64,000 bases of DNA from Paenibacillus sp. FSL H8-0079 (GTDB lineage: Bacteria > Bacillota > Bacilli > Paenibacillales > Paenibacillaceae). The position numbers and the translations under genes are program-made. The DNA lies in the NCBI RefSeq assembly GCF_037991315.1, contig NZ_CP150300.1, forward strand, positions 1,674,001-1,738,000, read 5' to 3'. Positions 31,913-55,548 of this stretch are shown here, one piece after another (positions within the stretch are counted from its first letter, which is position 1; each line of letters starts with the position of its first letter). Below the pieces are notes generated by a model, which saw only the letters and a program-made list of their open reading frames with translations, was not told the origin of the DNA and ran no database searches.

Positions 31913-33793
31913 ATGAGTGTGCAAACACCTACATTAGAAGAAGCGCAGGGTCTCCTGCAAAAATATTATGGCTACCCCGACTTCCGTGAGGGACAGAAAA
32001 AGATTGTAGCCAGCCTACTCGAACGTGAAGATACGTTGGGGATTATGCCAACTGGGGGCGGTAAGTCGATCTGTTATCAGATCCCCGCTCTGTTATATTC
32101 GGGTCTGACACTTGTTGTCTCCCCGTTGATCTCATTGATGAAGGACCAGGTCGATGCGTTGACGACCGCCGGAATTGCTGCCGCGTATATTAATAGTACA
32201 CTTAGCGGCAAAGAAGTGAATGATCGCATCCGCGCGGCGCAGCGCGGTGAGCTGAAGTTGCTCTATGTCGCGCCTGAGCGACTGGAGCTGGATTGGTTCC
32301 GCGAGGAGATGGGCTATTTGCCGATCTCTTGCGTTGCTGTGGATGAGGCCCACTGTGTATCGCAGTGGGGGCATGATTTTCGGACAAGCTACCTGGCGGT
32401 AGCGCCGTTTGTGGACAGTTTGCCGGAGCGGCCGGTGGTTGCGGCCTTTACGGCTACAGCGACGCCCGAGGTCATGGGCGATATTCTGCGTTTGCTGCGT
32501 TTGCAGGACCCGCAGACGTATGTGACCGGACTTGGGCGGGATAATCTGGCGTTTAGCGTGCTTCGCGGCGAGAGCAAGAAGGACTTTGTCCTGAATTATG
32601 CGCGCGAGCATGCCAGCGAGCCGGGGATTATATACGCCGCGACCCGTAAGGACGTGGACGATCTGCATCAGCGTTTGTTGCAGGCGGGATTGCCCGCAGG
32701 ACGCTACCATGCCGGGATGACGGACGATGAACGGTCCCAGAGCCAGGAAGCTTTTTTGTATGATGATATACGGGTGATGGTGGCGACCAATGCGTTCGGG
32801 ATGGGGATTGATAAATCGAACGTGCGTTACGTTATTCATAACAGCATGCCGAAGAACATGGAAGCATATGTGCAGGAAGCTGGACGTGCGGGTCGGGACG
32901 GTGAGCCAAGCCAGTGTATTCTGTTATTCGGGGCACAGGACATTATCACCCAGAAATTCTTGATCGAGCAGAATCCGATGGAGGGCGACCGGAAACAGAA
33001 CGATTACCGGAAGCTACAGCAAATGGTGGATTACTGTTACACGACACGTTGTCTGCGCAGTGCGCAGCTGGATTATTTCGGTGAGGTGCATGACGATACA
33101 CCGTGCGGTACTTGCAGTTCCTGTACGGACGACCGTGAGTTGGTAGACATGACGATTGATGCACAGAAAATATTCAGCTGCATTCACCGCATGCGTGAAC
33201 GGTATGGTGTATCATTGGTAGCTTCGGTGCTCAAAGGCTCTCGTGCCAAAAAGGTACTCGATTACGGCTTCAACTCTCTGCCAACCTATGGCGTGATGGG
33301 TAATCGTACGGAGCGTGAAATTTCGGAGATCATCAACGTGATGGTATCCGAAGGATATCTGATGCTGTCCGAGGGACAGTATCCGGTCGTTCGTCTGCAA
33401 CCACTGGCGGTCGAAGTACTCAAAGGCCAGCGTGAAGTGATGCAGCGTGTGGTCCGCAAGACAGCGGCAACGGCTTCGGGTACGAACTACGGCGGACGTC
33501 GTGGTCGCGATGCGATGCCATCTGCGGTCAACGAGACCGTATTCGAACAGCTGCGTCTGATCCGTCGTGATCTGGCAGCCAAAGAGCATGTGCCATCGTA
33601 CATTATTTTCAATGATGCGACTCTGCGCGAGATGAGTGTGGTATGTCCACAGACAGAACGTGACATGCTGGATATCAAAGGGGTCGGTGAGGTCAAGTAC
33701 CGCAAGTACGGACTGCCGTTCCTGGAGTTTTTCCAGAAGCAATCGGGCGAAGAAGTGGATACGGATGACGATGCGTTTTACGAGTATGAGTAG
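31913..33793 (+). CDS. recQ: ATP-dependent DNA helicase RecQ
   Basis: A 626-residue superfamily 2 helicase. Motif I is [14 protein letters not shown], motif [17 protein letters not shown] and motif [12 protein letters not shown]. The zinc-binding cysteines are in CYTTRCLR and CGTCSSC. A winged-helix region follows, and a C-terminal HRDC-type domain (about residues 525-600; [20 protein letters not shown]). It unwinds DNA 3' to 5' in recombination and fork repair. It is longer than the shortest RecQ forms and keeps all domains. Spacing of AAGGAG to ATG is normal. Confidence 0.95.
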
Positions 33794-34429
33794 GTATGAG
33801 CACGTATAAGTAAGTATGATCAATTATGAGCGAGTTTGGCTGGATGGGATGGAGTGAGAATTTTTGTTACATTCGCCCTTTCAAGTCTTTGAAGTTCGTG
33901 ACACGTAAAGCTTAATTGATCTAAAAGTTGGTAGATATGCTTCATGCAAGTCGATGGTTCGTCCATGATACGGGGGAAGCGTTCGGCAGAGGTTCGAGGC
34001 TAAAACCTAGAGGCTAAAGGCAGTAAAATGTGGATATCGAATTGCGGATGGAATGCGAATGAGGTCTTTTACAGGTTGAAGTTGAGTTTGAGGTTAATTA
34101 TGATGTCTCCTCATTGTGGACAAAAGAAGGTAAATTGTCTTTTAAAGGGTGGACATTGCCGATCGCATTGGCCGATAGTAGATTATACAGCATGTAGTTT
34201 GGTTGGAGACACTTTATGCTGTATGTTGTGGTCTGGGTTTGGTGGGGTGTATATGCCTTTTTGAAAAGAGTGTCCACTCTTTGAAAGACAAAAGTTGAAT
34301 ATGTCCATGAGACATGGAATGGCTAGTACAAAAGGGGTTTAGATGAACAGCATCCGGGGCAGGATGGCTGCGATGCTTTCCTTTTATAAAAAATATGTGG
34401 TCTGGGTGTCCAGGCAAAGGTTGTGAACC
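33794..34429. other. Gene-poor gap between recQ and the radical SAM gene
   Basis: No convincing gene. A perfect inverted repeat, AAAGAGTG-TC-CACTCTTT, lies near 34267-34284 without a T-run. The phrase TGTGGTCTGGGT recurs at about 34229 and 34396. An open frame at 34028-34264 has no ribosome site and an odd Cys/Trp-rich composition. Confidence 0.5.
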
Positions 34430-36472
34430 ATGAAGGTTATTCTTTCTACATTAAATGCAAAGTACATCCATACCTCTTTGGCCTTGCGGTGTCTGAAAGC
34501 GTACAGTGAGAAGGATTTTGATATTGACCTGGCGGAGTATACGATCAAGGACCCGGTGATGAATATTGTGTCTGATCTGTATCAGCGCGGCGCGGACGTG
34601 ATTGGTTTCTCGTGTTACATCTGGAACATTGAAGAGACGATCAAGGTCATTGATAATCTGAAAAAGGTTATGCCGAACGTGAAAATTCTGCTTGGCGGGC
34701 CGGAAGTGTCCTACGACACGGAATATTGGATGAACCGGATTCCAAATGTCGATTTCATCGTGATGGGTGAAGGGGAAGAGACGTTGCATCAGCTCTTGAC
34801 GGAGCTGGAAGGAAGCAAGAAGTTCCACTTTGTCTATGGACTGGCGTATCGCAAAGGGGAAGAGGTCATTCTCATGCCAGGACGCCCGAAAGCGGATCTG
34901 AACGATCTGCCGTCACCGCATCGATTTGATGAGGATATCCCGGAGCTTGGGAAGCGGGTTGTTTATTTTGAGACCAGTCGGGGCTGTCCGTTCAGTTGTC
35001 AGTTCTGTCTGTCCAGTATTGAGGTCGGCGTGCGGTATTACGATATCGAGCGGACGAAGTCAGATATTCTGTATCTGATCGAGAAGGGTGCAAAGCTAAT
35101 CAAGTTTGTGGACCGGACATTCAACATCAAGCGGGATTATGCGCTCGAAATGTTCAAATTCCTGATTGAGAATCATCAGGGGACAGTATTCCAGTTTGAA
35201 ATTACGGCAGATATTATGCGTCCCGAAGTACTGGACTATCTGGCAGAGAATGCGCCGCCGGGCACATTCCGGTTCGAGATCGGGGTACAGTCCACGAACG
35301 ATCCGACGAATGAACTGGTGAAACGCCGTCAGAATTTTACCAAGCTGAGCCGTACCGTCAATAAAGTCAAAGCTAGTGGCAAAATCGACCAGCATCTGGA
35401 TCTCATCGCCGGACTGCCGGAGGAAAATTACGATACGTTCCGCAAAACGTTTAATGATGTGTTTGCACTGGGGCCGGAAGAGCTTCAGCTCGGATTCCTC
35501 AAAATGCTGCGTGGTACAGGTCTGCGTCTGGATGCGGAGAAGTACAACTATACGTACATGGATCACGCGCCGTATGAGATTCTGGGCAGTGACGTGCTGC
35601 CGTTCAGCGACATTGTGCGCTTGAAGCGGTTGGAAGATGTACTGGAGAAATACTGGAACGCACATCGGATGGACCATACGCTGAAATATCTGATGGAGCA
35701 GGAGTTCAACTCGCCGTTTGATTTCTTCCAGGCATTTGGGGATTACTGGGAAGGTCAGGGTTGGCAGAAGATTGGTCACCAACTGGAGGATCTGTTTACT
35801 CGTTTGCACAGCTTCCTGGAGTCGCGGAATACGCCGCATATGGATATCGTGCTCGGCCTGATGAAGCTGGACTATTTCCTCGGTCACAAATACAAACCAC
35901 GCAAAATCTGGTGGGAAGATCCGCTTCAGAAAGACCAGTGGGCGGGTTATATGAAAACGTTGGCTGAACGTCCGGAAGACGTTCGCCTGCCACGTGTTGC
36001 CGGCGCCGCAGGCACGGCATGGCTGGAAAGCAGCGGCACGGGTGCGAGTGCCGCTGGGGCAAGTTCGGCTGCTGCCGGAGAAGACTCTGCCGCAGATGCG
36101 GCGGGTGTGATCGGCAGTGAAGCCGGGGGTACAGCGTCGCGCGTTGCGGGCGACGCAGTTGGGTCAGCCGTCGATGGAGCGGCGGACATGGAGGACGGCA
36201 ACGCTTCGCGTGCGTTGCCGATGACCTCGGCCATGACCGCACAGACGGTCATGGGTGCCCGTGCTTTCGCCGACCTCGGTCTCGGCGAAAAGGAATTGCA
36301 GAAGCACACCGTATTGGATGTGCTTCCGTTCCGGCTTGAGCGTGTGCTAGCTGGCGCCAGCCCGCTTGCCGCGAAAGGCCAGACGCTGCTGGTCGTTGTA
36401 TACCAGCAGCATGAAGGGCAGCAGGCGCAGTATTACACGCTGCCGCTGGGAGAAGAAGCCGCTGCAATATAG
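34430..36472 (+). CDS. B12-binding radical SAM protein (DUF4080 type)
   Basis: A 680-residue protein. Residues 1-130 are a cobalamin-binding Rossmann-like domain (GADVIGFSCYIWNIEETIKV, VKILLGGPEVSYD). The radical SAM core carries the 4Fe-4S triad Cys186, Cys190, Cys193 in SRGCPFSCQFC. A DUF4080 C-terminal region follows. Residues about 523-600 are an Ala/Gly/Ser-rich low-complexity insert of much higher GC, before a conserved-looking end. The reaction is unknown; relatives are often misannotated as methylthiotransferases. Confidence 0.85.
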   Translation: MKVILSTLNAKYIHTSLALRCLKAYSEKDFDIDLAEYTIKDPVMNIVSDLYQRGADVIGFSCYIWNIEETIKVIDNLKKVMPNVKILLGGPEVSYDTEYWMNRIPNVDFIVMGEGEETLHQLLTELEGSKKFHFVYGLAYRKGEEVILMPGRPKADLNDLPSPHRFDEDIPELGKRVVYFETSRGCPFSCQFCLSSIEVGVRYYDIERTKSDILYLIEKGAKLIKFVDRTFNIKRDYALEMFKFLIENHQGTVFQFEITADIMRPEVLDYLAENAPPGTFRFEIGVQSTNDPTNELVKRRQNFTKLSRTVNKVKASGKIDQHLDLIAGLPEENYDTFRKTFNDVFALGPEELQLGFLKMLRGTGLRLDAEKYNYTYMDHAPYEILGSDVLPFSDIVRLKRLEDVLEKYWNAHRMDHTLKYLMEQEFNSPFDFFQAFGDYWEGQGWQKIGHQLEDLFTRLHSFLESRNTPHMDIVLGLMKLDYFLGHKYKPRKIWWEDPLQKDQWAGYMKTLAERPEDVRLPRVAGAAGTAWLESSGTGASAAGASSAAAGEDSAADAAGVIGSEAGGTASRVAGDAVGSAVDGAADMEDGNASRALPMTSAMTAQTVMGARAFADLGLGEKELQKHTVLDVLPFRLERVLAGASPLAAKGQTLLVVVYQQHEGQQAQYYTLPLGEEAAAI

Positions 36473-36527
36473 ATGCAGCGGCCTGATACGAGCTGCATGG
36501 CCTATTGGCATCATTCAGCAGGAAGAT

Positions 36528-36697
36528 GTGCCACGGCTTTACGGTCCGTGGCACGTTTGGGGCAGGCATCACCGCTATGTGCGGGGGATGCCCGACTTGA
36601 TGAGCACCGCGCTATTGACCGCGGTGCTTCTCCATGAGGTGCTGCCCATTGGGCGCAGCACCTCATCCTTACGCGGCTTGTCATTGCACAAGTCGCG
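36528..36697. repeat. Cluster of five consecutive GC-rich hairpins
   Basis: Stems, in order: GTGCCACGG/CCGTGGCAC (36528-36554), GGCATC/GATGCC (36565-36592), GCACCGCG/CGCGGTGC (36604-36627), ATGAGGTGCTGC/GCAGCACCTCAT (36634-36666) and GCGGCTTGT/ACAAGTCGC (36673-36696, one G-T pair). None has a T-run. They fill most of the gap between the radical SAM gene and the integron terminator. Confidence 0.75.
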
Positions 36698-36740
36698 CTC
36701 CGCTTCACTTTAACCCAAATATATATGTTCCGAAAGCATC

Positions 36741-36792
36741 GGAAGGTCGTCTGATTCCCTAGGGGATGAAGAAGGGCCTTCCTTTTTGTTTT
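36741..36792 (+). terminator. Terminator ahead of the integron recombinase
   Basis: GGAAGG (36741-36746) pairs with CCTTCC (36777-36782) around an inner ATTCCC/GGGGAT stem; TTTTTGTTTTT follows. Close relatives stand at 56526 and 63144, the latter ahead of the decayed recombinase copy. Confidence 0.75.
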
Positions 36793-36808
36793 TCAGAAAG
36801 AGTTTCCT

Positions 36809-37924
36809 ATGAATGAACATGCTACTACCACAGAGACGATTACCATAACAAAAGGTTCCGCTGAATTACTGCACATCTACATCCCGTATAACCCTGCATA
36901 TATTGAGCGCATTCGTCGGATTAAGGGCAGAAGGTGGGAATCCAAACCAAAAGTGTGGATCATCCCTTACACCACAGCTGCTATACAGGAGTTCATGAAT
37001 CAATTTGATCCAGTTGATGTCCAGATTGCCCCGGAGTTGTGGGTGGAAAGCGAAGATTTACAGCATTGGAAAACTAGCAAGGGAAGTAATGTATGGAGTA
37101 AAGAGTCACTTCAGAAGGAATTAACATTACGAGGATACAGCCGTAAAAGAATTAAAGCGTATTGTAATCAGGTCGAACGTTTTCTGAGTAGCCTTGCGCT
37201 TAAAGATACCGATGTGACTAGTTCCAAAGTTCAGACGTATTGTTTAGGTTTGCTAGAGCAAGGGATCTCCCATTCAAGCGTGAATCAGACGATCAGCGCA
37301 ATTCGTTTCTATTGCAAACATGTACTCCATCATCCTACAGAAATCCAGTATATTCGTCCCAAAAAGCAGATAAAATTACCTAAAGTCATGTCAGAAAAAG
37401 AAGTTGCTCAACTACTCAAATCTGTTACCAATCTAAAGCATAAGACGATTCTGTTTCTTACGTATTCTTCTGGTCTTCGTGTTGGCGAAGTCGTTCGTCT
37501 TCAATGCAGCGATCTGGATATTGAGCGTCAGACACTTATTGTACGGCAGGGAAAAGGTCAGAAGGATCGGAGAACTCTTCTCTCTAACCTAGCTTGGGAA
37601 ATTGTGCAGGAATACATTACGGAGTATAGACCCAATCGTTGGTTATTTCCGGGACAATCTTCGGATCGGCATCTTACCGAACGCAGCGTACAGAAGGTTT
37701 TTGAAGAAGCTAGACAACGCGCAGGTATTGTAAAAAAGGTTAGTATTCATGCCTTAAGGCACTCCTTCGCTACGCATTTACTGGAAAACGGAACAGACTT
37801 GCGCTACATTCAGGAGCTACTTGGTCATACGAGTGCACGAACAACTCAGCGATATACGCATGTGAGTATGAAAAATATCCAGCGTATTCAGAGCCCGCTG
37901 GATCGTTTGGATCTGGGAGAGTGA
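36809..37924 (+). CDS. IntI/Xer-like tyrosine recombinase of the integron
   Basis: A 371-residue site-specific recombinase. Residues 18-75 form an extra N-terminal domain (YIERIRRIKGRRWESKPKVW) not found in XerC/D or classical IntI. A SAM-like core-binding domain spans about 95-175. The catalytic set is complete: Arg224 (SGLRVGE), Lys249 (RQGKGQKDRRT), His314 and Arg317 (HALRHSFATH), His340 (LLGHTS), Tyr349 (TQRYTH). The tail QSPLDRL is shared with IntI proteins (RSPLD). The IntI-specific insertion between the Lys motif and the FP(G/S) segment, about 30 residues in IntI1, is absent. It should excise and insert the cassettes downstream. AAAGAG precedes the ATG. Confidence 0.88.
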   Translation: MNEHATTTETITITKGSAELLHIYIPYNPAYIERIRRIKGRRWESKPKVWIIPYTTAAIQEFMNQFDPVDVQIAPELWVESEDLQHWKTSKGSNVWSKESLQKELTLRGYSRKRIKAYCNQVERFLSSLALKDTDVTSSKVQTYCLGLLEQGISHSSVNQTISAIRFYCKHVLHHPTEIQYIRPKKQIKLPKVMSEKEVAQLLKSVTNLKHKTILFLTYSSGLRVGEVVRLQCSDLDIERQTLIVRQGKGQKDRRTLLSNLAWEIVQEYITEYRPNRWLFPGQSSDRHLTERSVQKVFEEARQRAGIVKKVSIHALRHSFATHLLENGTDLRYIQELLGHTSARTTQRYTHVSMKNIQRIQSPLDRLDLGE

Positions 37925-37961
37925 GTTCTCCTATAAATCTACCTTTTTCACCAAATTCTTC

Positions 37962-37990
37962 TTCGCAAATACCACAGCATCGGTTATCAT
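37962..37990 (+). promoter_or_regulatory. Candidate cassette promoter (Pc)
   Basis: TTCGCA, 17 bases, TATCAT, located 59 bases before the first crossover. The same two hexamers at the same spacing are conserved at 63327-63355 behind the decayed recombinase copy, although the spacer sequence has diverged; this favours a functional promoter. It would transcribe the first cassettes. Confidence 0.6.
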
Positions 37991-38048
37991 AGACGTAGTT
38001 CGGATATCAGGCAAGATCCGTGGTATTTACGAAGTGCATAAATTAGAT

Positions 38049-38056
38049 GTTAGGTG
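38049..38056 (+). other. attI-like crossover joining the first cassette
   Basis: GTTAGGTG fits the G^TTRRRY core cleaved by integron integrases; the first base belongs to attI and the rest to cassette 1. It lies 125 bp after the recombinase stop. The left side (GCATAAATTAGAT) does not show the palindromic arm of the attC sites, as expected for attI. Confidence 0.7.
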
Positions 38057-38082
38057 AAATTTCTGAAAATGGAGGAACTAAT

Positions 38083-38682
38083 TTGTGGGATAAATTAATA
38101 CAGCTCGATGGTGAAACATTAAAATCAGTAATTTCGCTTTTCGCGTTATTTTTTTCATTACTAGCTATAGTAATTACTTTTTGGAATGTAAATAGACAAC
38201 GAGTTGCTAATCTAAAGAATGACACTGAAAAATTTAAAAGAGAATTAAATCTAAAAACATGTGATGAGTTCATTGAAAAGATATTTAGTGCTAAACAACT
38301 GCTGCAAAGGACGCGAAGTCTTGAGGGACAATTAAGGTGGATGATATTTGGAGCTAAGTCGCAAGAAGAATTTAATGAAGATTTATGGGGGATTATTGAA
38401 GATAAGAGCATAGAGGATTTATGGCTGTACATTCTGAAGAGAGAAATAATTCTTAAAAAGTACAAGGGAGATTGTGAAAAACTGTATAAGGAATGGGATA
38501 GATCTACACAAGAAATTTGGAAATTTAAGAACTTTTGGATTCCAGGGAGAACAGATCAAGAACTTTTTGAAGAAATCATAAAACCTAATGAGGTAGCTGA
38601 ACCTTTAATTGAACTAACTGAAAAATTACAGAGACAGATTCAGAATGATTTTTTAGGTCATATTTATCAAAATAAGATTTGA
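38083..38682 (+). CDS. Cassette 1 protein, single membrane anchor and coiled coil
   Basis: About 199 residues. A short cytoplasmic start (MWDKLIQLDGETLKS) leads into one membrane helix (about 13-35; ISLFALFFSLLAIVITFW), then a long charged helical domain. No catalytic motif was recognised. TTG at 38083 is preferred because GGAGG lies seven bases upstream; an ATG at 38047 lies across the recombination site and would place part of attI in the protein. It is AT-rich like the other cassettes, and no internal promoter was recognised. Confidence 0.7.
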   Translation: MWDKLIQLDGETLKSVISLFALFFSLLAIVITFWNVNRQRVANLKNDTEKFKRELNLKTCDEFIEKIFSAKQLLQRTRSLEGQLRWMIFGAKSQEEFNEDLWGIIEDKSIEDLWLYILKREIILKKYKGDCEKLYKEWDRSTQEIWKFKNFWIPGRTDQELFEEIIKPNEVAEPLIELTEKLQRQIQNDFLGHIYQNKI

Positions 38683-38722
38683 AATATAGACCAGTTATGT
38701 TTATGAATGAAGTCAGAAACAT

Positions 38723-38883
38723 CACCTAACATAACATTCCTGCATCGTCGCTGACGCTCCTTGGTCGCCAAGGGGGATTTCGAAGTAGTGATTTCATGCG
38801 ACACATTCAACCAGCTAAGTCTGACGACCCGGACCTACGGTCCTTAAGCTGCTTGAACGTCAGGAATGCACAAACGTTATCAG
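38723..38883 (+). other. attC site 1 (cassette 1/2 junction)
   Basis: R'' CACCTAAC, 5-base spacer, L'' ATTCCTG; then about 110 bases of imperfectly paired DNA; L' CAGGAAT, 8-base spacer, R' GTTATCAG. R'' matches the start of cassette 1 and R' begins cassette 2. Confidence 0.85.
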
Positions 38884-39365
38884 AAAATACTGAAAAGAGG
38901 TATAGTAAAATCAATTCCAAAAACTTAATTGAATGGTCAGAGAAGTATGCGGTTATAGAGCGGACAAAAAAAGGTTTTATAACATATATGGAAAATTGGA
39001 AAAAAGAAAATAGAGGTGACTTCTGGGACACTTTTAAGGGCAAGTCAAATTTAAAGTTAATCAATTCAGAATTTTATTCTTTGCAACTGACATACATTAA
39101 TGAATCTAATGACTTCGTGTATTGTAATTTAAATATTATGTACATTGGAGAGTATGTAGGGAGCTATAGAATGGTCTTTACACTTGATGGTGAAGTTGCT
39201 GACGATTCAATTGATATTGATAGATTTATGGATAAGATTATTAATGAGGGTACTACAAGAGTAGAGATTATTAAAAAAGCTATAAAACATGGGTATTTAA
39301 TAGATGAAATAGCTGGACTTGTAGAACTAGATAAAGATTTAATAAAACCATTATTTGAAAGTTAA
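38796..39365 (+). CDS. Cassette 2 protein, unknown function
   Basis: The frame encodes up to 189 residues ending IDEIAGLVELDKDLIKPLFE, an acidic soluble protein of unknown family with a beta-rich middle (LQLTYINESNDFVYCNLNIM). The start is unresolved. The only upstream ATG (38796) lies inside attC site 1 without a ribosome site. Inside the cassette, AGAGG is followed nine bases later by an in-frame ATC at 38910, the same distance from the cassette boundary as the TTG of cassette 1. The first internal ATG is near 38986. Confidence 0.6.
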   Translation: MRHIQPAKSDDPDLRSLSCLNVRNAQTLSENTEKRYSKINSKNLIEWSEKYAVIERTKKGFITYMENWKKENRGDFWDTFKGKSNLKLINSEFYSLQLTYINESNDFVYCNLNIMYIGEYVGSYRMVFTLDGEVADDSIDIDRFMDKIINEGTTRVEIIKKAIKHGYLIDEIAGLVELDKDLIKPLFES

Positions 39366-39384
39366 TCAAAGAAGTTAGTAACTT

Positions 39385-39503
39385 CTGATAACATAATATT
39401 CATGCTACGGCTCCAAGTGGAGCCTTGGTCTGCAAGAGGAATTTCGAGGAGGCATTTCAGCAGACAACCCTGTGGGGTTTCATGAATACAGGAACGTTAG
39501 ATG
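39385..39503 (+). other. attC site 2 (cassette 2/3 junction)
   Basis: R'' CTGATAAC, 5-base spacer, L'' ATTCATG; L' CATGAAT, 8-base spacer ACAGGAAC, R' GTTAGATG; 119 bp in all. R'' is the reverse complement of the start of cassette 2. An inner hairpin GGCTCC-AAGT-GGAGCC stands in the variable part. Confidence 0.87.
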
Positions 39504-39971
39504 AAATTACCGAAATATGAATTCAAATTACTATCAAGAAGGAAGCTGTCGTACAAGATGATTATAAAAGATCAAGTTATGGAAATGCTATTAATTTCGA
39601 GTCCATCTTATAAAAATAGATATGATAAATACATTAAAGAAAATTATAAACCGGGAGAAGAAAGATTGATTTATATAGAAGTATGTGATTTTATCCATCA
39701 TCTATTTGATAATTATCTGAAGCGCGAAGTGGATGAATTCGATAAAATCTTTGAACTTATTGAAAGATTACATACTGATGGAGACGATTTTGTAAAAGAA
39801 TTAGCTACCGTAGGATTTTTGGAAGATCTTCAGAACATATTATTGCGGCAGAACATTGATTTAATTGTTTTTGAAGTCTATTTAAGACCAGTATCAAGAA
39901 CTTGGTGGAATAATTTAATTGATTTTTGGAATGGAAAAACGGGATACCTTGGAGGGCCATTAAGAGAATAA
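39501..39971 (+). CDS. Cassette 3 protein (immunity-like/DUF7674-like)
   Basis: Up to 156 residues, soluble and helical. The core FDKIFELIERLHTDGDDFV followed by ELATVGFLEDLQNILLR resembles small DUF7674-type proteins of the immunity class; this is a tentative match. The ATG at 39501 is supplied by the recombination site itself (GTTAGATG). No good ribosome site lies before it, and the internal ATG near 39558 (MIIKDQVMEM) behind AAGGAAG is an alternative. Confidence 0.65.
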   Translation: MKLPKYEFKLLSRRKLSYKMIIKDQVMEMLLISSPSYKNRYDKYIKENYKPGEERLIYIEVCDFIHHLFDNYLKREVDEFDKIFELIERLHTDGDDFVKELATVGFLEDLQNILLRQNIDLIVFEVYLRPVSRTWWNNLIDFWNGKTGYLGGPLRE

Positions 39972-40007
39972 TAGGATTTGAAGTTAATTCAAAGAAGTCG
40001 GTGACAT

Positions 40008-40177
40008 CATCTAACATTATATCCACGCATCGGAGCCTGACGGCTCCTCGGTCCGCCCGGAGAGATTGGCAGGAAATGGAATCAGGCGGACACATCTGCA
40101 CCGACTAACCGCGTCGCGGCCGGCTGCTGGCGCAGCCTTAAGTCGGTGAGACGTCGTGGATACAGAAACGTTATGGG
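40008..40177 (+). other. attC site 3 (cassette 3/4 junction)
   Basis: R'' CATCTAAC, 5-base spacer, L'' ATCCACG; L' CGTGGAT, 8-base spacer ACAGAAAC, R' GTTATGGG; 170 bp. R'' matches the start of cassette 3. The interior has GGAGCC-TGAC-GGCTCC and GGCTGC-TGGC-GCAGCC hairpins. Confidence 0.87.
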
Positions 40178-40226
40178 AAATTGACCAAGACACTAACAAG
40201 ATTTAATACCAATGTAAAAGTTCATA

Positions 40227-40340
40227 TCATTTTTCGATATTTATAGCTTTCTCAATTTTCGCTTCCAACTTATCAATGTTACTAGGCCGAACATAGTGAA
40301 TAACTACAATATTTTTATTTCTATATTTATCTACTACAGG
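40227..40340 (-). pseudogene. 3' remnant of a reverse-strand cassette 4 gene
   Basis: Read on the minus strand, an open frame enters from 40340 and ends at TGA (40227-40229), encoding a natural-looking C-terminus (VVDKYRNKNIVVIHYVRPSN, then a Lys/Glu/Ile-rich helix). The composition is AT-rich like other cassettes and changes abruptly at about 40340, where the inserted block begins. The 5' part may be the fragment at 42.5-42.7 kb. Confidence 0.55.
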
Positions 40341-40610
40341 CTGTGGGCTGAGCCGTTGCGGGAGCCGGACACATAGTTGGAAGGGTACAGGGAATTATGG
40401 GAAGATCGGTTTGACAGACTGTGCGATTATAAGGATCAGGGCAACGGCATGGAATCCTGGGGCAAAGCGCTGTATAAGGAAATTGAAGCGCCGGCGCGTA
40501 TTGTGATGATGGATGTATTCTCCGACGCGGACGGCAATATTACTGAAGGCATGCCGAAGGGCATTACGGAAACCTGGGAGCGTTTGGCGGTGCGTCTGTC
40601 TGGCCAAGCT
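40341..40610 (+). pseudogene. Scrambled SRPBCC/AHSA1-domain remnant
   Basis: Pieces typical of AHSA1-type proteins occur in shortened order: YRELWEDRFDRLCDY (a C-terminal segment), SWGKALYKEIEAPARIV then DVFSDADGNITEGMP (middle strands), and GITETWERLAVRL (C-terminal helix) with the intervening strands missing. It looks like two related genes joined by deletion. It forms the left part of the DNA inserted into cassette 4. Confidence 0.6.
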
Positions 40611-40673
40611 TCAGCAGGCTTAAGCAGTCCAAGGCAAATTATTATCTTCGCAGACATAATAGACCGACTGGAG

Positions 40674-40698
40674 ACCGCCCATATGTTGCGGTTTTTTG
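40674..40698 (+). terminator. Weak terminator-like hairpin
   Basis: ACCGC and GCGGT enclose CCATATGTT and are followed by TTTTTTG. It points in the plus direction, behind the SRPBCC remnant. Confidence 0.5.
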
Positions 40699-40767
40699 TT
40701 TATAAGGAGCAAGAGTCGATAGAATGCATCGGATCGGTTTTTCAAGCTCCTTCATCCCACTTGCAGG

Positions 40768-41454
40768 TTATCTTCCGACATTAACGATTTTTCTGACCCA
40801 TGTCGGCTCATCCGTCGCAGCGCGTACAAGGCAGTCGGCACAATCTGCGAAGGGCAGCGGCCGGAACGGGGCAATGCGTGCCGACGGACCTGCGGTATAG
40901 CTCAGAGTGGCAGCAGCATTACTCAGCCCCGACGGTCTTACAATAACCCAATCCAGATCACTCCGCTGCACCGCATACTCAGCCGCAGCCTTATCCTTGA
41001 TCGCTTTTGAGAAGATACGGCGATTAATACCCATCGCCCACCGATTGCCTGCGGACAGCTCTTTGCCGTCGCTCAAACCAATGCCGCTCTGCATGACCAG
41101 GCGCTTAACGCCGGCACGCTGACAAGCCTTAAGAATATTCGGAATTCCCTCAGACATGACTGTACCCGGTGAGAAGTTTGCCGCAAGGATATTCAGGATT
41201 CCCTTTGACACGACGGTACCCGGCGAGGAGTTACTGGCCGGACCAATGCAGCTGATTACCACATCCGTACCAGCGATGACTGCGGCCATACTCGACGCAT
41301 CGAATACATCCCCCTGCCGGATGATGAGCCGCTCTGCGGGGGGAATGACTTCCGGCCGGCGGGCTACGGCTATAACCTCATGTCCCAACTCGAGTGCCCG
41401 TTCCACCACTTTTCTTCCAGTTCCTCCTGTTGCTCCAATAATCGCAATTTTCAT
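40768..41454 (-). CDS. NmrA-like NAD(P)-binding protein
   Basis: A 228-residue atypical SDR protein. It opens with MKIAIIGATGGTGRKVVERA (GxxGxxG Rossmann motif), followed by DVVISCIGPAS and a C-terminal WVIVRPSGLSN typical of NAD(P)H-binding/NmrA-like proteins. Residues about 97-125 contain an internal near-tandem duplication (SPGTVVSKGILNIL and SPGTVMSEGIPNIL). It is divergent from a TetR regulator 206 bp away, which probably controls it. The role may be quinone or redox sensing; substrate unknown. Confidence 0.82.
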   Translation of the reverse strand: MKIAIIGATGGTGRKVVERALELGHEVIAVARRPEVIPPAERLIIRQGDVFDASSMAAVIAGTDVVISCIGPASNSSPGTVVSKGILNILAANFSPGTVMSEGIPNILKACQRAGVKRLVMQSGIGLSDGKELSAGNRWAMGINRRIFSKAIKDKAAAEYAVQRSDLDWVIVRPSGLSNAAATLSYTAGPSARIAPFRPLPFADCADCLVRAATDEPTWVRKIVNVGR

Positions 41455-41660
41455 TAAAACGTCTCCTCTTTATTAGTGATTATAGTTATTTTCATCCCCT
41501 TACACGTACATAAATGCACAGTAGAGTGCTAAGGAACTTATATGTATAATTGTAAAGAGGAAAAGAAAGTCTGCAATTAGCAAAAAATCAGGTTCCGTGC
41601 ATTAGTACACAAAACCTGTAGCATTGTGCATTTATTCTCAGGAAAGTCGGTGATTCTCCA

Positions 41661-42239
41661 GTGTTAAAGATAGATCGAAGGATACGCAAATCACAGGAAG
41701 CCATAAAAAAGGCTGTTGTTGAACTGATGATTGAAAAAAACTTTGATCAAATTACGCTACAAGATATTTCCGATAGGGCAGATGTTAGCCGAAGGACCAT
41801 CTACCTACACTACATGGACAAATTTGATCTTCTGGATAAGCTCCTCGAAGAACATATTGACGAGCTGCGGGAACTCTGCGATACGGCAGGCCAGGACGCC
41901 GAGTATATGGATGTAGGGTTGTTATGGTTCGAGTATTTGGAGAGGCATTATTTATTCTTTTCCGCGATGCTGGCAAGTAAAGGAAGTCCATTTTTTCGTA
42001 ATCAATTTCTTGCGTTTTTCCTCCAAGAGTTAGGGAAGAAAGAGAACAATTTGCCTGAAGAGAGCAATCAAGAATTGGCTGATGGGGAGATAGTTGATAT
42101 TCAATTTTTGGGATCAGCTATCGTGGGGATAGTGGAATGGTGGTTCAAGAATAAAAAGCCTCTCTCGCCTTTGTTCATGGCTGAGCGGTTGGGAACGCTG
42201 CTTGAACGGAATCTTGAAGCTGATTTTCCGCGTGCCTGA
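41661..42239 (+). CDS. TetR/AcrR-family regulator
   Basis: A 192-residue repressor. The N-terminal helix-turn-helix is clear: KAVVELMIEKNFDQITLQDI followed by SDRADVSRRTIYLHYMDKFD. The C-terminal ligand domain includes FLGSAIVGIVEWWF, typical of the TetR_C_7/YxaF-like group. It starts at GTG. It is divergent from the NmrA-like gene and probably represses it. The 3' end runs directly into the IS5-type remnant. Confidence 0.88.
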   Translation: MLKIDRRIRKSQEAIKKAVVELMIEKNFDQITLQDISDRADVSRRTIYLHYMDKFDLLDKLLEEHIDELRELCDTAGQDAEYMDVGLLWFEYLERHYLFFSAMLASKGSPFFRNQFLAFFLQELGKKENNLPEESNQELADGEIVDIQFLGSAIVGIVEWWFKNKKPLSPLFMAERLGTLLERNLEADFPRA

Positions 42240-42501
42240 AGCAAGCTTCTACGTGGTGTCCATGCACAAATTTCAAGTTTTGTGCCGCCTCGCAGGCTGC
42301 ATACACGCCGTGAAACTGGTCATTCCGCCGAAGAAAAACCGCAAGCAGCTGGGTGAGTATGACAAGGAACTGTACCGTGTCCTTCACCTGATAGAGAACG
42401 CGTTTTCACATTTGAAGCGCTGGCGTGGAATTGCTACGCGGTATACTAAGCATGCAGCTTTTTTTGTTGCTGCCGTTCAGATTCGTTGTATTTCCTTATG
42501 A
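42240..42501 (+). mobile_element. IS5-family transposase 3' remnant
   Basis: The encoded stretch LVIPPKKNRKQLGEYDKELY and HLIENAFSHLKRWRGIATRY, ending VAAVQIRCISL, is the C-terminal part of an IS5/IS427-type DDE transposase. The rest of the element is missing. It marks the right edge of the block inserted in cassette 4. Confidence 0.8.
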
Positions 42502-42535
42502 CTCAAGGTATTAACCTAACTAATGTCGACACGAT

Positions 42536-42744
42536 CTAGCGTTTCTGTCGTTGTAGTAATTTTTTTTCTTGAAATGCCTCAATGGCTTCCTTAGATGAGT
42601 TGAAATTAAAACATTATCAGGATTTTTGTTTTCTTGAGACATTTTAAATTGATAGGGTAATTTTCCTTTCATTTTTATCTCAAAGGGAGGATTTACTTCA
42701 GCGTATTCAAAGAAGAGGTCAACATCCCATAACAATATATTCAC
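42536..42744 (-). pseudogene. 5' part of a reverse-strand cassette 4 gene
   Basis: On the minus strand an ATG at 42744 opens inside attC site 4 and encodes MNILLWDVDLFFEYAEVNPP and onward. After about 45 residues the more protein-like continuation (SSKEAIEAFQEKKLLQRQKR) is in another frame, implying a frameshift. It ends near the inserted IS remnant. With the fragment at 40.2 kb it may represent one gene split by the insertion. Confidence 0.45.
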
Positions 42745-42823
42745 GCTGCGGGCATACGCCCTGGGTCCGGCATACGCCGGATACCCAGCCTGCGCTGGGT
42801 CGTGAATACAGGAACGTTAGATG
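42726..42823 (+). other. attC site 4 (cassette 4/5 junction)
   Basis: R'' CCCATAAC, 5-base spacer, L'' ATTCACG; L' CGTGAAT, 8-base spacer ACAGGAAC, R' GTTAGATG; 98 bp, the shortest site. R'' is the reverse complement of the start of cassette 4, 2.5 kb away, across the inserted block. Inner hairpins: GGGCATACGCCC and CCCAGCCTGCGCTGGG. Confidence 0.87.
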
Positions 42824-42857
42824 AAATTCCTGAAAACGAGATAAAAAGATGAAGTAG

Positions 42858-43481
42858 GTGAAGTTTAAGTTGTCTTATATGAAACCAGTAATCCGAGAAC
42901 CTTATTACGATAAACCTAATTGGATTGAGAATGAAGTGAATCGAAAGGAATTTACTTTTTTATCCTCAGAAAGTAGTGAAGCAGAAGTTGAATTGTTTTT
43001 ACTGCATTTATTTGGATACAACAGCATTGATGTATCGAAGTCTTTCGAGGAATCTTTTGAAGAGCTATTTGAGCAAGATGAAGTAGCGCTACTAGGTGGG
43101 GCAGCTTTTATAAAGGATGATGAGACATGTATCATGCCTAGCTGCTGTTGTGGGCTAGAAGAAATACAATCAATAGAACATTCAATCCAAGCTAAACAAA
43201 GTCCATGGCTTGGGCATGACCCATCGCCTGGAATTCAGTATTTTGATGATTACGCCTTAGTATGGTCAGATGATCCGGAACCACTTAAGGAAGAACTCAT
43301 AAGCATTAAGTTTACCTATAATGAACTGGCAGAAAGCCTTAAGAAATGCAAAAAGGACTTATTGGAATTTATAGAAGAACCATTATATAAATGGATTAAG
43401 GTAAGAGATGGTGACATAGCGAATCGAATGAAGCAAAAGATGTTTCATTGGTTTTTGAAAGAAAATTCAAATAAAGAATAG
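42858..43481 (+). CDS. Cassette 5 protein A, unknown
   Basis: A 207-residue acidic soluble protein. The middle holds a Cys cluster and Trp/Gly-rich segment (MPSCCCGLEEIQSIEHSIQA, SPWLGHDPSPGIQYFDDYAL) reminiscent of immunity-type proteins, but I cannot name a family. Start GTG at 42858; an internal ATG (42879) is possible, and neither has a strong ribosome site. The stop overlaps the next start (TAGTG). Confidence 0.65.
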   Translation: MKFKLSYMKPVIREPYYDKPNWIENEVNRKEFTFLSSESSEAEVELFLLHLFGYNSIDVSKSFEESFEELFEQDEVALLGGAAFIKDDETCIMPSCCCGLEEIQSIEHSIQAKQSPWLGHDPSPGIQYFDDYALVWSDDPEPLKEELISIKFTYNELAESLKKCKKDLLEFIEEPLYKWIKVRDGDIANRMKQKMFHWFLKENSNKE

Positions 43482-43663
43482 TGGTGAACCAATATGGATA
43501 TTCGATCCTTGATTTACTTATATGGCAACAAGACATGAATTGGCCAATTGCACTAGAAATACTTAAACCAGAGCTAGAAAGAATAAGGAACTACCCAACA
43601 AGTGATGAGATACAAAGTGATTTAATAGAAGAAGTAGAAGTAATACTAAAACGACTCTTGTAG
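43481..43663 (+). CDS. Cassette 5 protein B, DUF5071-like fragment
   Basis: Sixty residues. The segment LLIWQQDMNWPIALEILKPE matches the conserved core of DUF5071, whose members are about twice as long; N- and C-terminal parts are missing or degenerate. GTG at 43481 or 43484 starts it, coupled to the preceding gene. It may be a shortened functional protein or a remnant. Confidence 0.55.
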   Translation: MVNQYGYSILDLLIWQQDMNWPIALEILKPELERIRNYPTSDEIQSDLIEEVEVILKRLL

Positions 43664-43687
43664 GTAGTACATAGAAGGGGAGTACTT

Positions 43688-43760
43688 CTGATAACAGAAC
43701 ATTCGAGCTGGGGCTCCTGATGGAGCCTTGGTCTGCGGGTTAAATTTCAAGGAAGTAGTC
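43688..43760 (+). other. Truncated attC half-site (5)
   Basis: CTGATAAC plus spacer and an inner GGCTCC-TGAT-GGAGCC hairpin closely match the left half of attC site 2, but the L'-R' half with GTTRRRY is missing. Its R'' does not match the start of cassette 5 (GTTAGATG), so this tail derives from another cassette. Confidence 0.7.
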
Positions 43761-43800
43761 TATTAGAACAACGGTACAAGAAGCATAAGAAGGAGTTTAT

Positions 43801-44250
43801 ATGAAATATACTAAAGCATGTCTTATAGTCATTCTTATCATCTTGTGTAGTACGGGATGTGGAACAAGAGAAATGATAGAAATTAATTATAATGTGCAAG
43901 AAATACCTAATCATGATTTTATGCTTACTGTGAATAACTACTTTCAACATTTTGATGATATCCGGAGATGGAAAGACTACACGACAGAAACATATGTGAA
44001 AAGCGTATATGCATGGTGTACAGGAGACTATACAGAAGAAGCAACAGTCGATGAGATGGTTAAAGTATATTATCAATTGAACAAGGATTCTCTTAAGTTA
44101 GAATCGGTAGATATAAATAACATTGAAGTAAGTGAAAATGATGAGATCTTAATTGAAGTATCTAGAACATGGGAAGATGGCCAAAAAGATGAATCCACGT
44201 ATTCCATACTCTTCGAAAACGAGGGATGGAAAATTGACGATCGAATGTGA
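43801..44250 (+). CDS. Small lipoprotein of unknown function
   Basis: A 149-residue precursor. The signal peptide ends in the lipobox STGC (Cys about 20). The mature domain is acidic and resembles small extracytoplasmic domains with an NTF2-like end (TYSILFENEGWKIDDRM). GAAGGAG precedes the ATG. It follows the broken attC half-site and may be a former cassette gene now fixed; a terminator follows. Confidence 0.7.
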   Translation: MKYTKACLIVILIILCSTGCGTREMIEINYNVQEIPNHDFMLTVNNYFQHFDDIRRWKDYTTETYVKSVYAWCTGDYTEEATVDEMVKVYYQLNKDSLKLESVDINNIEVSENDEILIEVSRTWEDGQKDESTYSILFENEGWKIDDRM

Positions 44251-44322
44251 ACGTTGATTGGAAAGCACTAGCATATGTATGAATGGTTTGAATGAACTGA
44301 AGGTATACTTGCGAAAACAAAG

Positions 44323-44352
44323 AAGCCGGGGCATTAAATGTCCGGCTTTTTT
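44323..44352 (+). terminator. Intrinsic terminator
   Basis: AAGCCGG and CCGGCTT enclose GGCATTAAATGT and are followed by TTTTTTG. It closes the integron-side transcription unit before the sulfur operon. Confidence 0.88.
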
Positions 44353-44457
44353 GTCGATCCTATGTCTCTAAACTCGCACAACAAGAAGACTTTCCCGACA
44401 CAAAATATGGTGAATAGGGAATCGTGTAATCGTACCCATTGAATAATTAAATTTACA

Positions 44458-44474
44458 TATAGAATAGTTCTATA
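44458..44474 (+). promoter_or_regulatory. Candidate activator-binding palindrome
   Basis: TATAGAATAGTTCTATA is a perfect 7-bp inverted repeat with 3-base centre, lying 11 bases upstream of the predicted -35. The position and T-N11-A form suit a LysR-type activator; in Bacillus subtilis the comparable operon is activated by the LysR protein YtlI. No such gene is in the window. Confidence 0.45.
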
Positions 44475-44484
44475 AGTATACCCG

Positions 44485-44514
44485 TTGACGATATTCCCAC
44501 TGGGATGATATTTT
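44485..44514 (+). promoter_or_regulatory. Promoter of the cystine/sulfur operon
   Basis: TTGACG (44485-44490), 18 bases, TATTTT (44509-44514). An imperfect palindrome, ATTCCC-ACT-GGGAT, fills the spacer and could be an operator. The leader to the first ATG is about 70 bases with no riboswitch-like structure recognised. Confidence 0.55.
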
Positions 44515-44591
44515 TAGATCAATTAATTCCTACTTAACATGTATGAATTGGTGGTTTAAAAATAATATAAAACATAACGGGGGATAAAAAC

Positions 44592-45419
44592 ATGAAAAAA
44601 TGGTCTGTTTTAACACTAACTACTGCACTAGTTCTGGCGTTGACAGGATGCAACACCGGGGGAGAAGCGAAGACGGCATCGGGAGCTGAGGGGGCAAACG
44701 AACCAACCCAGATTATTGTGGGAACAGGCACACAGTTTCCAAATGTAGCCTTTATTGACGAAAATGATAAGCTGACGGGTTACGATGTAGAACTGGTCAG
44801 AGAAATTGATAAACGGCTTGATGATTACGAGTTCGAGTTTCAGACACTGGAGTTCACCAACTTGCTGCTGAGCCTTGAAACGAACAAGATTGACATGGTT
44901 GCACATCAAATGGAAAAAAATCCGGAGCGCGAGGAGAAATATCTGTTCAACAAAGAAGCGTATTCCCATTGGAAAAACAAAATTGCCGTTCTTAAAGATG
45001 ACAACTCCATTCAATCCATTGACGATTTGAAGGGCAAGAAAGTATTTACTACAGCAACCAGTGCACAAGCCATCTTGCTGGAAAACTACAACAAGGAGCA
45101 TGACAATGCACTTGAGATTGTGTATTCAAGTGGTGTGGCCAACGATTTAATCTCACAACTCAAGTCCAAACGGGTTGTAGCGTCTATAGCTGCAGACTTT
45201 ACCCTTCCACTTATCGATCCAAACAACGATTTGAAACTGGTCGGTGCGCCGCTTAGTGAATCAGACACGCTGTTTATGTTCCGCAAAAACGACCCTGAGC
45301 AGCAAAAACTCGCTGACCGTGTCGATGAAGTGCTGAAGGAAATCAAGGCTGACGGCACATTGAAGCAACTGAGCGAGCAATGGCTTGGTTTTGACGCTAC
45401 GCAATCGGAAGCCAAATAA
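44592..45419 (+). CDS. Amino-acid (cystine-type) ABC transporter binding lipoprotein
   Basis: A 275-residue family 3 solute-binding protein: lipobox LTGC (Cys about 20), then two lobes with IIVGTGTQFPNVAFIDENDK, LTGYDVELVREI, and the LKGKKVFTTATSAQAILLEN segment. Similarity and gene order suggest the TcyJ/TcyK group, which binds cystine and related sulfur amino acids at the outer membrane face. It is first in an operon with two permeases, an ATPase and flavin monooxygenases. Confidence 0.85.
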   Translation: MKKWSVLTLTTALVLALTGCNTGGEAKTASGAEGANEPTQIIVGTGTQFPNVAFIDENDKLTGYDVELVREIDKRLDDYEFEFQTLEFTNLLLSLETNKIDMVAHQMEKNPEREEKYLFNKEAYSHWKNKIAVLKDDNSIQSIDDLKGKKVFTTATSAQAILLENYNKEHDNALEIVYSSGVANDLISQLKSKRVVASIAADFTLPLIDPNNDLKLVGAPLSESDTLFMFRKNDPEQQKLADRVDEVLKEIKADGTLKQLSEQWLGFDATQSEAK

Positions 45420-45446
45420 CACGTAGAGGAAAGGCAGGTCGCTGCG

Positions 45447-46142
45447 ATGGGTGCACCATTTGAATTCAGTTATGTCATTGACTACTTTGTAAAGCTCCTA
45501 CCCACCATCAGTACTACGCTTCTAATTGTAGTTAGTGCAATGGTGCTTGGACTTATCATCAGTTCCATCGCGGCACTGCCGCAGATGTATAATATTCCGG
45601 TGCTGAAACAGCTGTCTAAGCTGTATGTATCCTTTTTTCGCGGTACACCGATCCTGATTCAACTGTTTTTGTTCTATTACGGTGTACCGGAAATTTTAGG
45701 TTTGTTCGGTATTAATGCCAATCGTGCACCTGCGCTGTATTTTGTCATTATGACTTACTCGTTGAATAGCGGAGCGTTTATGGTAGAGATGATTCGGGCT
45801 TCAGTCGCATCTGTGGATCGGGGGCAGGTCGAGGCTGCTTATGCGCTGGGCATGTCCGGCCCACAAGCCTTTTTCCGGATTGTATTGCCGCAGGCATATG
45901 TGACGGCACTGCCTATATTCTCCAATATGGTGATTGGCAGCCTGAAGGATACATCACTTGCTTTCAGTGTGGGTGTCATGGAGATGACCGGTAAATCCTC
46001 CACACTGGCGACGATCTCTCGTCATTTTATCGAAGCGTATATCTCACTGGCTCTCATTTATTTTGTTCTAAGCTTTGTGCTGGATCGGGTGTTCCGTGTG
46101 CTTGAGCGGAAAGTACAGAAGAGGGGGTTTGCTCCGATATGA
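45447..46142 (+). CDS. Amino-acid ABC transporter permease (TcyL-like)
   Basis: A 231-residue His/Glu/Gln-type permease with five membrane helices. The EAA-loop motif is VEAAYALGMSGPQAFFRIVL followed by PQAY, and FFRGTPILIQLFLFYYG lies near the N-terminus. It forms a heterodimeric channel with the next gene, and overlaps it by four bases (ATGA). Confidence 0.9.
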   Translation: MGAPFEFSYVIDYFVKLLPTISTTLLIVVSAMVLGLIISSIAALPQMYNIPVLKQLSKLYVSFFRGTPILIQLFLFYYGVPEILGLFGINANRAPALYFVIMTYSLNSGAFMVEMIRASVASVDRGQVEAAYALGMSGPQAFFRIVLPQAYVTALPIFSNMVIGSLKDTSLAFSVGVMEMTGKSSTLATISRHFIEAYISLALIYFVLSFVLDRVFRVLERKVQKRGFAPI

Positions 46143-47598: not shown

Positions 47599-47743
47599 GA
47601 GAATCAATTTCATAATACCTTTAGCTACTTCAATCAAGGCAAGATATAGATCAAAACGATTCAATTTGTCTATATCTTGTTACAAAAAACCATTTTTAGT
47701 GAGTTATGAAATTGATTCAAGCAACATTGGAGGGGGACTGTAC

Positions 47744-48760: not shown

Positions 48761-48811
48761 TAATGTTCACAATCGAATTCATTTCATAATACAGATCGGA
48801 GAGCGGTAATC

Positions 48812-49887: not shown

Positions 49888-49911
49888 ATGGATCAATGCG
49901 GGAGGGTGACC

Positions 49912-51249: not shown

Positions 51250-51313
51250 ACAAAACGTTTGCAGATAGAACGGATATAAAAATGAGATTACATTAACTGA
51301 GAGGGGAACCGTA

Positions 51314-52636: not shown

Positions 52637-52680
52637 ATCATTAGGCAAGAAAAGTTGATTCATAGTATATTGATTATAAA

Positions 52681-52745
52681 AAGAAACCGTCTCTATCCAA
52701 TGGTTGGGTGGTACCTCCATTTCACCAAAGAACGGTTTCTTTTTT
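52681..52745 (+). terminator. Terminator of the sulfur operon
   Basis: AAGAAACCGT (52681-52690) and ACGGTTTCTT (52732-52741) are perfect 10-bp arms around a 41-base loop, followed by TTTTTG. Confidence 0.85.
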
Positions 52746-55503: not shown

Positions 55504-55548
55504 TTCAGTTGAATTGTAGCAATAATTTTAATTATAAGGGTGATAGAT

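Follow-up and report, generated by a model that had tools for sequence, protein, structure and literature searches.

The window analysed here is a stretch of 64,000 nucleotides (nt) from Paenibacillus sp. FSL H8-0079 (NZ_CP150300.1, positions 1,674,001 to 1,738,000), corresponding to 64 kb of a chromosome that is a single contig of 6.7 Mb. Between positions 36809 and 43780 of the window, a gene encoding a tyrosine recombinase is followed by an attI-type region and by an array of cassettes, which open with TTA and are separated by sites resembling the attC sites of integrons. The locus is very probably a sedentary chromosomal integron-type platform, the cassettes of which would be moved by the neighbouring recombinase; the latter, to judge from its sequence, is not an IntI. 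The features of the array are listed below (ORF, open reading frame; CM, score in the covariance model of the sites).

36809..37924, + strand: tyrosine recombinase gene, intact, 371 residues (PF00589, E 9e-42)
37925..38052, + strand: attI-type region, ending in TTTACGAAGTGCATAAATTAGAT followed by G^TTA
38050..38876, + strand: cassette 1; ORF 38047-38682, 211 residues; attC-like site 38724-38883, CM 59.9 bits
38877..39496, + strand: cassette 2; ORF 38796-39365, 189 residues; attC-like site 39386-39503, CM 87.1 bits
39497..40170, + strand: cassette 3; ORF 39501-39971, DUF7674 (PF24722); attC-like site 40009-40177, CM 79.6 bits
40171..42816, + strand: cassette 4, 2.6 kb; attC-like site 42727-42823, CM 99.3 bits
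40768-41454, - strand: NAD(P)H-binding protein in cassette 4 (Pfam)
41661-42239, + strand: TetR-type regulator in cassette 4 (Pfam)
about 42202-42501: transposase-like remnant in cassette 4 (reading by eye)
42817..43780, + strand: cassette 5, end decayed; ORFs 42858-43481 and 43481-43663
43689-43780: decayed terminal site of cassette 5, CM 21.9 bits, E 0.055

An earlier sequence-only reading of the window had described an integron-like array in a Paenibacillus-type chromosome, consisting of a tyrosine recombinase, a conserved promoter block, an attI-like crossover and five cassettes separated by sites of attC geometry. The array is now supported by covariance matches and by cassette-precise differences, which were found at GTT upon comparison with related genomes, and both the recombinase and the geometry of the sites have been borne out. 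The attI-like crossover also holds at the sequence level. Only four cassettes are intact, as the fifth, starting at 42817, ends in a decayed site. The block taken for a promoter is conserved as the attI-like stretch, and is not supported as a promoter by the sigma-70 scan reported further on.

The crossover of attI is tentatively placed after the G at 38049. The region from the recombinase stop codon through attI (37925-38052) is 98.4% identical to that of Paenibacillus sp. SZ31 (locus L005; compared loci are denoted by L numbers), a strain listed under the same species, and the identity ends with the GTTA at 38052. The start of the first cassette can be predicted from the R'' of the first site. 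At least 9 of 12 compared bases agreed in 39/43 arrays (a count without shuffled control), 12 of 12 in the window, and an attI-type junction lies 63-168 nt after the end of the recombinase match in 36/43 arrays. The prediction failed in four arrays (L011, L060, L066, L075; scores 4-6), and loci L025 and L113 were unusable for this comparison. By eye, attI regions of the window's group end in ACGAAGTRCATARATTAGAT followed by GTTA, with small variants; elsewhere they resemble CGAAGTTCGTAAATAAGAC followed by GTT, with an upstream copy in L062 and L064. The ATG of the cassette 1 ORF spans 38047-38049, and since its last base is the crossover G, attI would provide the start codon. The sequence AGATG followed by TTA also recurs in the attI of close relatives.

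The four sites of the window fit the scheme R''-5 nt-L''...L'-8 nt-R', and 7/7 L-box positions are paired in each. A covariance model, distinct from that of IntegronFinder, was built from 57 strict sites; it matched all four, but as these were among the 57 their bit scores are not independent. Independent of the model are the results of a repeat finder blind to integrons, which retrieved five copies of the R''/L'' block, four copies of the L'/R' block and the inverted repeats connecting the start and the end of each of cassettes 1-4. A strict scan for cassettes whose start matches their own end gave three matches in the interval 36809-44600, namely cassettes 1, 3 and 4, with cassette 2 falling short of the rule; the intervals 1-36000 and 45000-64000 gave none, and shuffled sequences averaged 0-0.05. 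At E<=0.1 the model found 146 matches in 27 sources, and 17/18 Paenibacillus recombinase loci had sites, the sole miss at this threshold being L019. In 20 further regions, chosen by hand, 211 matches were found at E<=0.5, and 19/20 regions had sites; the remaining one is cut by a contig end.

By integron logic, the R' of a site within an array would belong to the next cassette, and a site would be complete only in the excised circle. The prediction was evaluated on 268 cassettes, selected from 305 consecutive ones because GTT/AAC was intact at all three places. In 217/268 cassettes (shuffled mean 17.3, maximum 28) the end can pair with the three variable bases at the start of the same cassette, compared with only 26/268 for the R'' and R' arms of one site in the array. 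In the window, the start of cassette 1, GTTAGGTGAAATTTCTGA, faces GTTAGGTGATGTTTCTGA at its own end (reverse complement), and cassette 4 features the match GTTATGGGAAATTGACCA / GTTATGGGATGTTGACCT. The rule fails in cassette 5, where the R'' of the decayed site mismatches the cassette start. Own-end complementarity extends to about position 17, with values of 0.84-0.95 at positions 5-9 and 12-16, 0.74 at 17 and 0.53 at 18, and is interrupted by a gap at position 10 (0.41) and position 11 (0.03). The start carries AA at positions 10-11 in 224/268 cassettes. Terminal stems of different cassettes share little past GTTA, and pairing within each cassette is kept over about 17 bp. The canonical integron core is 7 bp long, GTTRRRY, in the accessible text of PMC8876359. 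This core fits only 63/268 cassette starts and 3/5 junctions of the window; GTTA is found in 268/268, GTT having been required beforehand. No own-rule match was found at the loci of recombinases lacking the N-terminal domain described below (L114, L116, L117, L304, L305, L135, L137).

Cassettes are exchanged as precise units. Among the 268 cassettes, 76 homologous pairs were identified (at least 75% identity over at least 75% of the length): in 24 pairs the two members come from different loci, and in the other 52 from the same locus (L068 accounts for 36, L073 for 10). In L068 and L073, near-identical cassettes are found both in tandem and dispersed inside one array. At the junctions of 11 pairs, identity starts or stops at G^TT or within a few shared adjoining bases; exceptions are the neighbouring sites, which are alike everywhere, and the left side of the L068 pair, where the adjacent cassettes are copies too. 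Near-identical cassettes are spread between arrays and species. Cassette 2 is identical at 620/620 bases to L004:12232-12851 of Paenibacillus sp. LS1, flanked there by unrelated DNA; cassette 3 is identical at 674/674 bases to a cassette of a second array of the same genome (L024:15903-16576), and at 98% to L014:14006-14680. Ungapped identities of the flanks of cassettes 2 and 3 range from 0.21 to 0.28, and 99%-identical cassettes lie beside recombinases 61% and 47% identical to that of the window (L057, L070). The same-species strain L005 is 95.9% identical in the left flank and 98.7% in the right one, and 89.4% identical over 42721-43800, a stretch made up of the last site together with cassette 5, whose end is decayed. 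Cassettes 1-4 match the L005 array at the sites only, and have been replaced between the two strains. As attI and the last cassette are shared and cassettes 1-4 are not, turnover took place between attI and the last cassette, as expected of an integron inserting at attI. The decayed fifth site is common to L005 and L004.

The repeats might alternatively be terminators, MITE-like (miniature inverted-repeat transposable element) sequences or RNA elements scattered by transposition. They are indeed intergenic and rich in hairpins, and an Rfam scan of the window named none of the array repeats, the only hit being a group II intron. Yet repeat boundaries coincide with the boundaries of cassette exchange, all but 2/347 sites are oriented as their array (one overlapping minus-strand match left out), and start/end barcodes proper to each cassette are unexpected for copies of one element. 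This explanation is hardly credible. The Rfam hit lies outside the array, with group II intron domains at 4407-5100 of the window (RF02003, 97.6 bits; RF00029, 52.6 bits).

The recombinase is 98% identical to the enzyme of P. amylolyticus Heshi-A3 and 95% to that of Paenibacillus sp. SZ31. Tyrosine recombinase fold and active site are present. R224, K249, H314, R317 and H340 are invariant in 79 relatives and Y349 is nearly so; we take these to be the catalytic residues. Residues 1-90 form an extra N-terminal domain, which has no Pfam match over cut-off and is left uncovered by the structural matches in PDB; a search of viral folds returned generic phage integrases only. The domain may bear a likeness to the HARP domain. 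The core, residues about 92-368, matches Xer enzymes and IntI4 in a structure model (mean predicted local distance difference test score 82.5), the best structural neighbours being of XerA type.

The similarity of layout, attC-like sites and GTT crossover would fit a canonical integron of the ordinary kind, brought in from another phylum together with a normal IntI, and the recombinase does score 197.8 bits with the IntI model TIGR02249. The score is however below the cut-off of 265, as are those of 9/9 relatives (193-239), against 481.8 bits for the IntI of Limnochorda. Alignment with VchIntIA (2A3V) breaks into two parts, between which the enzyme has 18 residues and VchIntIA 60. In an alignment of 50 rows, the segment from D253 to Q295 (43 residues) measures 42-44 residues in 20/20 rows of the N-terminal-domain family and 84 in 17/17 IntI rows, so that about 41 residues, the IntI-specific region (I2), are missing from the family. 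With NF040815 (XerA-type) the enzyme obtains 214.6 bits, below the curated cut-off of 220, which 4/9 relatives pass. In the tree, 17 IntI rows (100/100) and 12 Paenibacillaceae rows (100/97) form separate clades; the IntI rows derive from the Limnochorda search and from viral contigs, and include no class 1-3 IntI. Both clades fall in a 44-row group, which also includes recombinases without arrays, and which a 100/100 branch splits from XerA, XerC and XerD (4 Xer rows). Joining IntI and Paenibacillaceae alone is disfavoured by the approximately unbiased (AU) test, with p-AU 0.0285, the group having been named after the tree was seen. Because the IntI-specific segment is absent, TIGR02249 scores are below cut-off and the enzyme lies outside the sampled IntI clade, the recombinase is not to be classed as an IntI, and a canonical integron is a highly improbable account of the locus. 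A single origin of all array-linked recombinases may or may not apply: when the IntI, Paenibacillaceae and Bacteroidota rows are grouped with those of other Bacilli, p-AU is 0.316, not rejected, and for the same group without IntI it is 0.419.

A recombinase of this kind might act on double-stranded palindromic sites in a Cre-like or Xer-like manner, without single-strand folding. In line with this, the IntI-specific segment is lacking and the nearest structures are XerA-type; moreover L boxes at the fixed 5/8 spacing pair fully in 154/313 sites and at 6/7 positions in 89, and no regular extrahelical base was noticed. Against it, the two spacers are unequal, 5 and 8 nt, and the stem differs between cassettes beyond GTTA, yet inside each one pairing is kept over about 17 bp. 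The inner hairpins show covariation by most measures: among 31 sites about 97 nt long, 50 two-sided cells were counted versus 16.8 +- 5.0 in shuffled sets, all within the three inner hairpins, and 8 pairs changed on both sides versus 4.7; the test is uninformative on the outer stems, because the scan had demanded their pairing. Folding energies, calculated without shuffled control, are better for the circular form than for the array form in 242/267 cassettes (bottom strand), and better for the bottom than for the top strand in 211/267 circles. Double-strand recombination is thus unlikely, although far less so than the alternatives above. Consensus 97-nt sites, such as 42727-42823 of the window, contain three inner hairpins, by eye with ATNC-type tetraloops in most.

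Among Paenibacillaceae, a recombinase match at E<=1e-60 was found in 89/295 genomes, and sites at E<=1e-5 in 106/148 genomes, belonging to 15/17 genera. The genome of strain FSL H8-0079 hosts 31 sites, arranged in three clusters of 4, 10 and 17. The second cluster (C1:1746849-1762111) has 10 sites and a recombinase remnant, 84% identical to residues 296-371, which is the only other close recombinase match in the genome; the third (C1:2622116-2637871), about 0.9 Mb distant, has 17 sites. Such arrays would be accommodated if cassettes were mobilised in trans by another recombinase (XerCD or a canonical IntI) and the gene beside the array were a passenger, all the more as many genomes seem to hold arrays without an intact neighbouring recombinase. 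But sites were found behind the family recombinase in all the 20 hand-chosen regions save the truncated one, the attI-like junction keeps its 63-168 nt distance from the gene in 36/43 arrays, and a canonical IntI over cut-off was found in only 2/398 genomes of the phylum, one of which is Limnochorda, and in 0/14 control genomes. Neither of the two genomes belongs to the genus or family of the strain. Mobilisation in trans is accordingly very improbable, and the preferred reading remains a platform served by its own recombinase.

Several observations weigh against that reading. The recombinase lacks the domain to which single-strand recombination of attC is ascribed. Other genomes contain several broken copies of the recombinase, and arrays without an intact neighbouring recombinase seem common (106/148 versus 89/295). 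In L066 two of five sites are reversed, and in the second array of the strain (L024) two sites, at 8849 and 9279, lie upstream of the recombinase remnant. Fewer than 5/7 L-box bases pair at the fixed 5/8 spacing in 57/313 sites; further pair types in the covariation test showed no excess (17 versus 18.0 shuffled). Of the 305 consecutive cassettes, 37 had been dropped as GTT/AAC was not intact in all three places. A loose own-rule scan gave one match in the canonical Limnochorda region (L129), at a place without known site. Finally, no promoter above chance was detected by the sigma-70 scan, which found 3 matches versus 2.9 +- 1.5 expected by chance.

Relatives of the system were identified in other groups. 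In other Bacilli, sites were found in 6/15 regions around weaker relatives of the recombinase. At L113 (14001-15850) a recombinase without the N-terminal domain is oriented away from a pair of attC-like sites scoring 57.6 and 64.2 bits, as in canonical integrons. Full-length relatives reside on Bacteroidota plasmids, and two of five examined have attC-like arrays. These are the plasmids, typed as mobilizable, of Rufibacter tibetensis (L221) and Pontibacter kalidii (L223), which carry attC-like arrays downstream of recombinases 35-37% identical to that of the window, with an N-terminal part of 210 residues and a segment of 42 residues. Own ends of ten cassettes agree at positions 1-10 (0.7-1.0), never at 11, and again at 12-14 (0.8-0.9); having been picked by eye through their matching ends, the cassettes agree at positions 1-10 partly by choice. 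L221 and L223 thus resemble the window's family in the N-terminal extension, the arrays, the own-end match and the position-11 mismatch (10/10), and differ in being plasmid-borne, in the length of the N-terminal part, in the stem ending after about position 14 and in site sequence. No match was found in Persicobacter by two automatic scans, nor in Chryseobacterium oryzae by one. The plasmid of Chryseobacterium sp. SNU WT5 (L219, 9984-17810) carries a family recombinase followed by four 282-nt repeats with 38-bp palindromes, between which are an IS110 transposase and a group II intron reverse transcriptase; the arrangement resembles an array built on sites of a different type. The IMG/VR contig L134 (IMGVR_UViG_2829729602_000005), listed there as viral, encodes a 49% identical recombinase, with one in-frame stop in the translated piece, and has four own-rule matches.

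With canonical sedentary chromosomal integrons the Paenibacillus loci share the recombinase gene, the adjacent attI, the mostly co-oriented cassettes, the R''/L''/L'/R' sites, the G^TT crossover and cassette-precise exchange. Unlike in these, the recombinase lacks the IntI-specific segment, has an extra N-terminal domain and points along the array, followed by attI on the 3' side, whereas canonical integrons are usually divergent; and a terminal stem of about 17 bp with a conserved mismatch replaces the 7-bp GTTRRRY core. The integron of Limnochorda pilosa, of the same phylum, differs in having a true IntI, and its recombinase falls in another clade. A scan for canonical attC sites returned nothing at the Limnochorda loci, where the repeat finder then showed two attC copies; in the one readable cassette, which is the only canonical control for stem length, the own-end rule holds over 9 bp and then stops. 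The sequence-only reading had considered an integron in the Bacillota notable. The array is real, but Limnochorda pilosa is the only complete Firmicutes integron named in the accessible part of the IntegronFinder 2.0 paper (PMC9024848), and a review, in the text available, counts Firmicutes among integron phyla (PMC8618304), so that an integron in Bacillota is not in itself new. A literature search, whose coverage excluded bioRxiv and most subscription papers and was partial for some listings, found no report of this Paenibacillaceae system; in the one Paenibacillus genome paper found to mention integrons (PMC3012674) they appear only in the reference list. What goes beyond the sequence-only reading is the non-IntI recombinase, the unusually long cassette-specific stem, the family-wide spread and the Bacteroidota relatives.

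The array lies between conserved flanks.

32000..36800, + strand: conserved left flank, including a RecQ-type helicase (31913-33793, by eye) and a radical SAM protein (34430-36472, Pfam)
43790..45103, + strand: conserved right flank, 98.7% identical to L005:19800-21113, and 95.4% to L004 from 43841

The left flank is found upstream of the recombinase in 14/18 Paenibacillus loci, and in 1/19 further loci of the family. The Paenibacillus figure indicates that the platform is sedentary and occupies a single chromosomal place in most cases.

The longest ORF runs along the array in 214/268 cassettes and against it in 39, and 15 cassettes have no ORF of 60 residues. In the window, the ORF of cassette 1 has no Pfam or PADLOC match, and that of cassette 2, which as listed starts within the preceding site, has no Pfam match. 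Cargo was surveyed on 112 ORFs, that is 108 of the 120 longest among 249 non-redundant ones plus four from the window. Pfam matches include, among 25 of 88 families listed, abortive-infection, restriction, GNAT, isochorismatase, IS110 and many DUF families; among 25 of 189 PADLOC matches listed are Old/GajA, NucC and reverse transcriptases. PADLOC gave no match for four window cassette ORFs and one flanking ORF. Pfam matches to the APH family (2/112) and to the beta-lactamase family (1/112) were also observed; both families are broad, and the function is putative.

In the mechanism that these data suggest, the neighbouring recombinase would be the catalyst, inserting circular cassettes at attI just 3' of its own gene and excising them at the attC-like sites, with the cut between G and TT. 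The substrate would most likely be a folded single strand, made of the L'/L'' arms, the inner hairpins and the terminal stem of about 17 bp, and the stem would be whole only when the two ends of one cassette are joined, as they would be in the excised circle. Candidates for taking over from the I2 domain and the extrahelical bases of canonical integrons are the conserved stem mismatch (positions 10-11) and the additional N-terminal domain. On balance, we lean towards the view that these loci represent a second integron lineage, in which cassettes are captured on folded attC sites by recombinases that were without the IntI-specific domain from the outset, and which relies instead on the long cassette-specific stem, its fixed mismatch and the N-terminal domain. 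The lineage, present on Bacillota chromosomes and Bacteroidota plasmids, would be either a survivor of the state preceding I2 or an independent invention.

Escudero et al. 2016 (PMC4792948) describe a chicken-and-egg paradox in how the IntI-specific domain and attC sites arose, each seemingly useless alone. Arrays of attC-like sites bearing signs of exchange, next to a recombinase devoid of that domain, make the question testable; the ability to capture genes may be older, or may have evolved on more than one occasion. Integron detection requiring the IntI-specific domain is described in the part of PMC9668308 available, which suggests, by inference rather than from a run of IntegronFinder, that such detection would see these loci at best as orphan arrays, in spite of sites being present in 106/148 genomes of the family. 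As the cassettes include homologues of anti-phage genes, a large and flexible gene pool of a common soil family may be overlooked.

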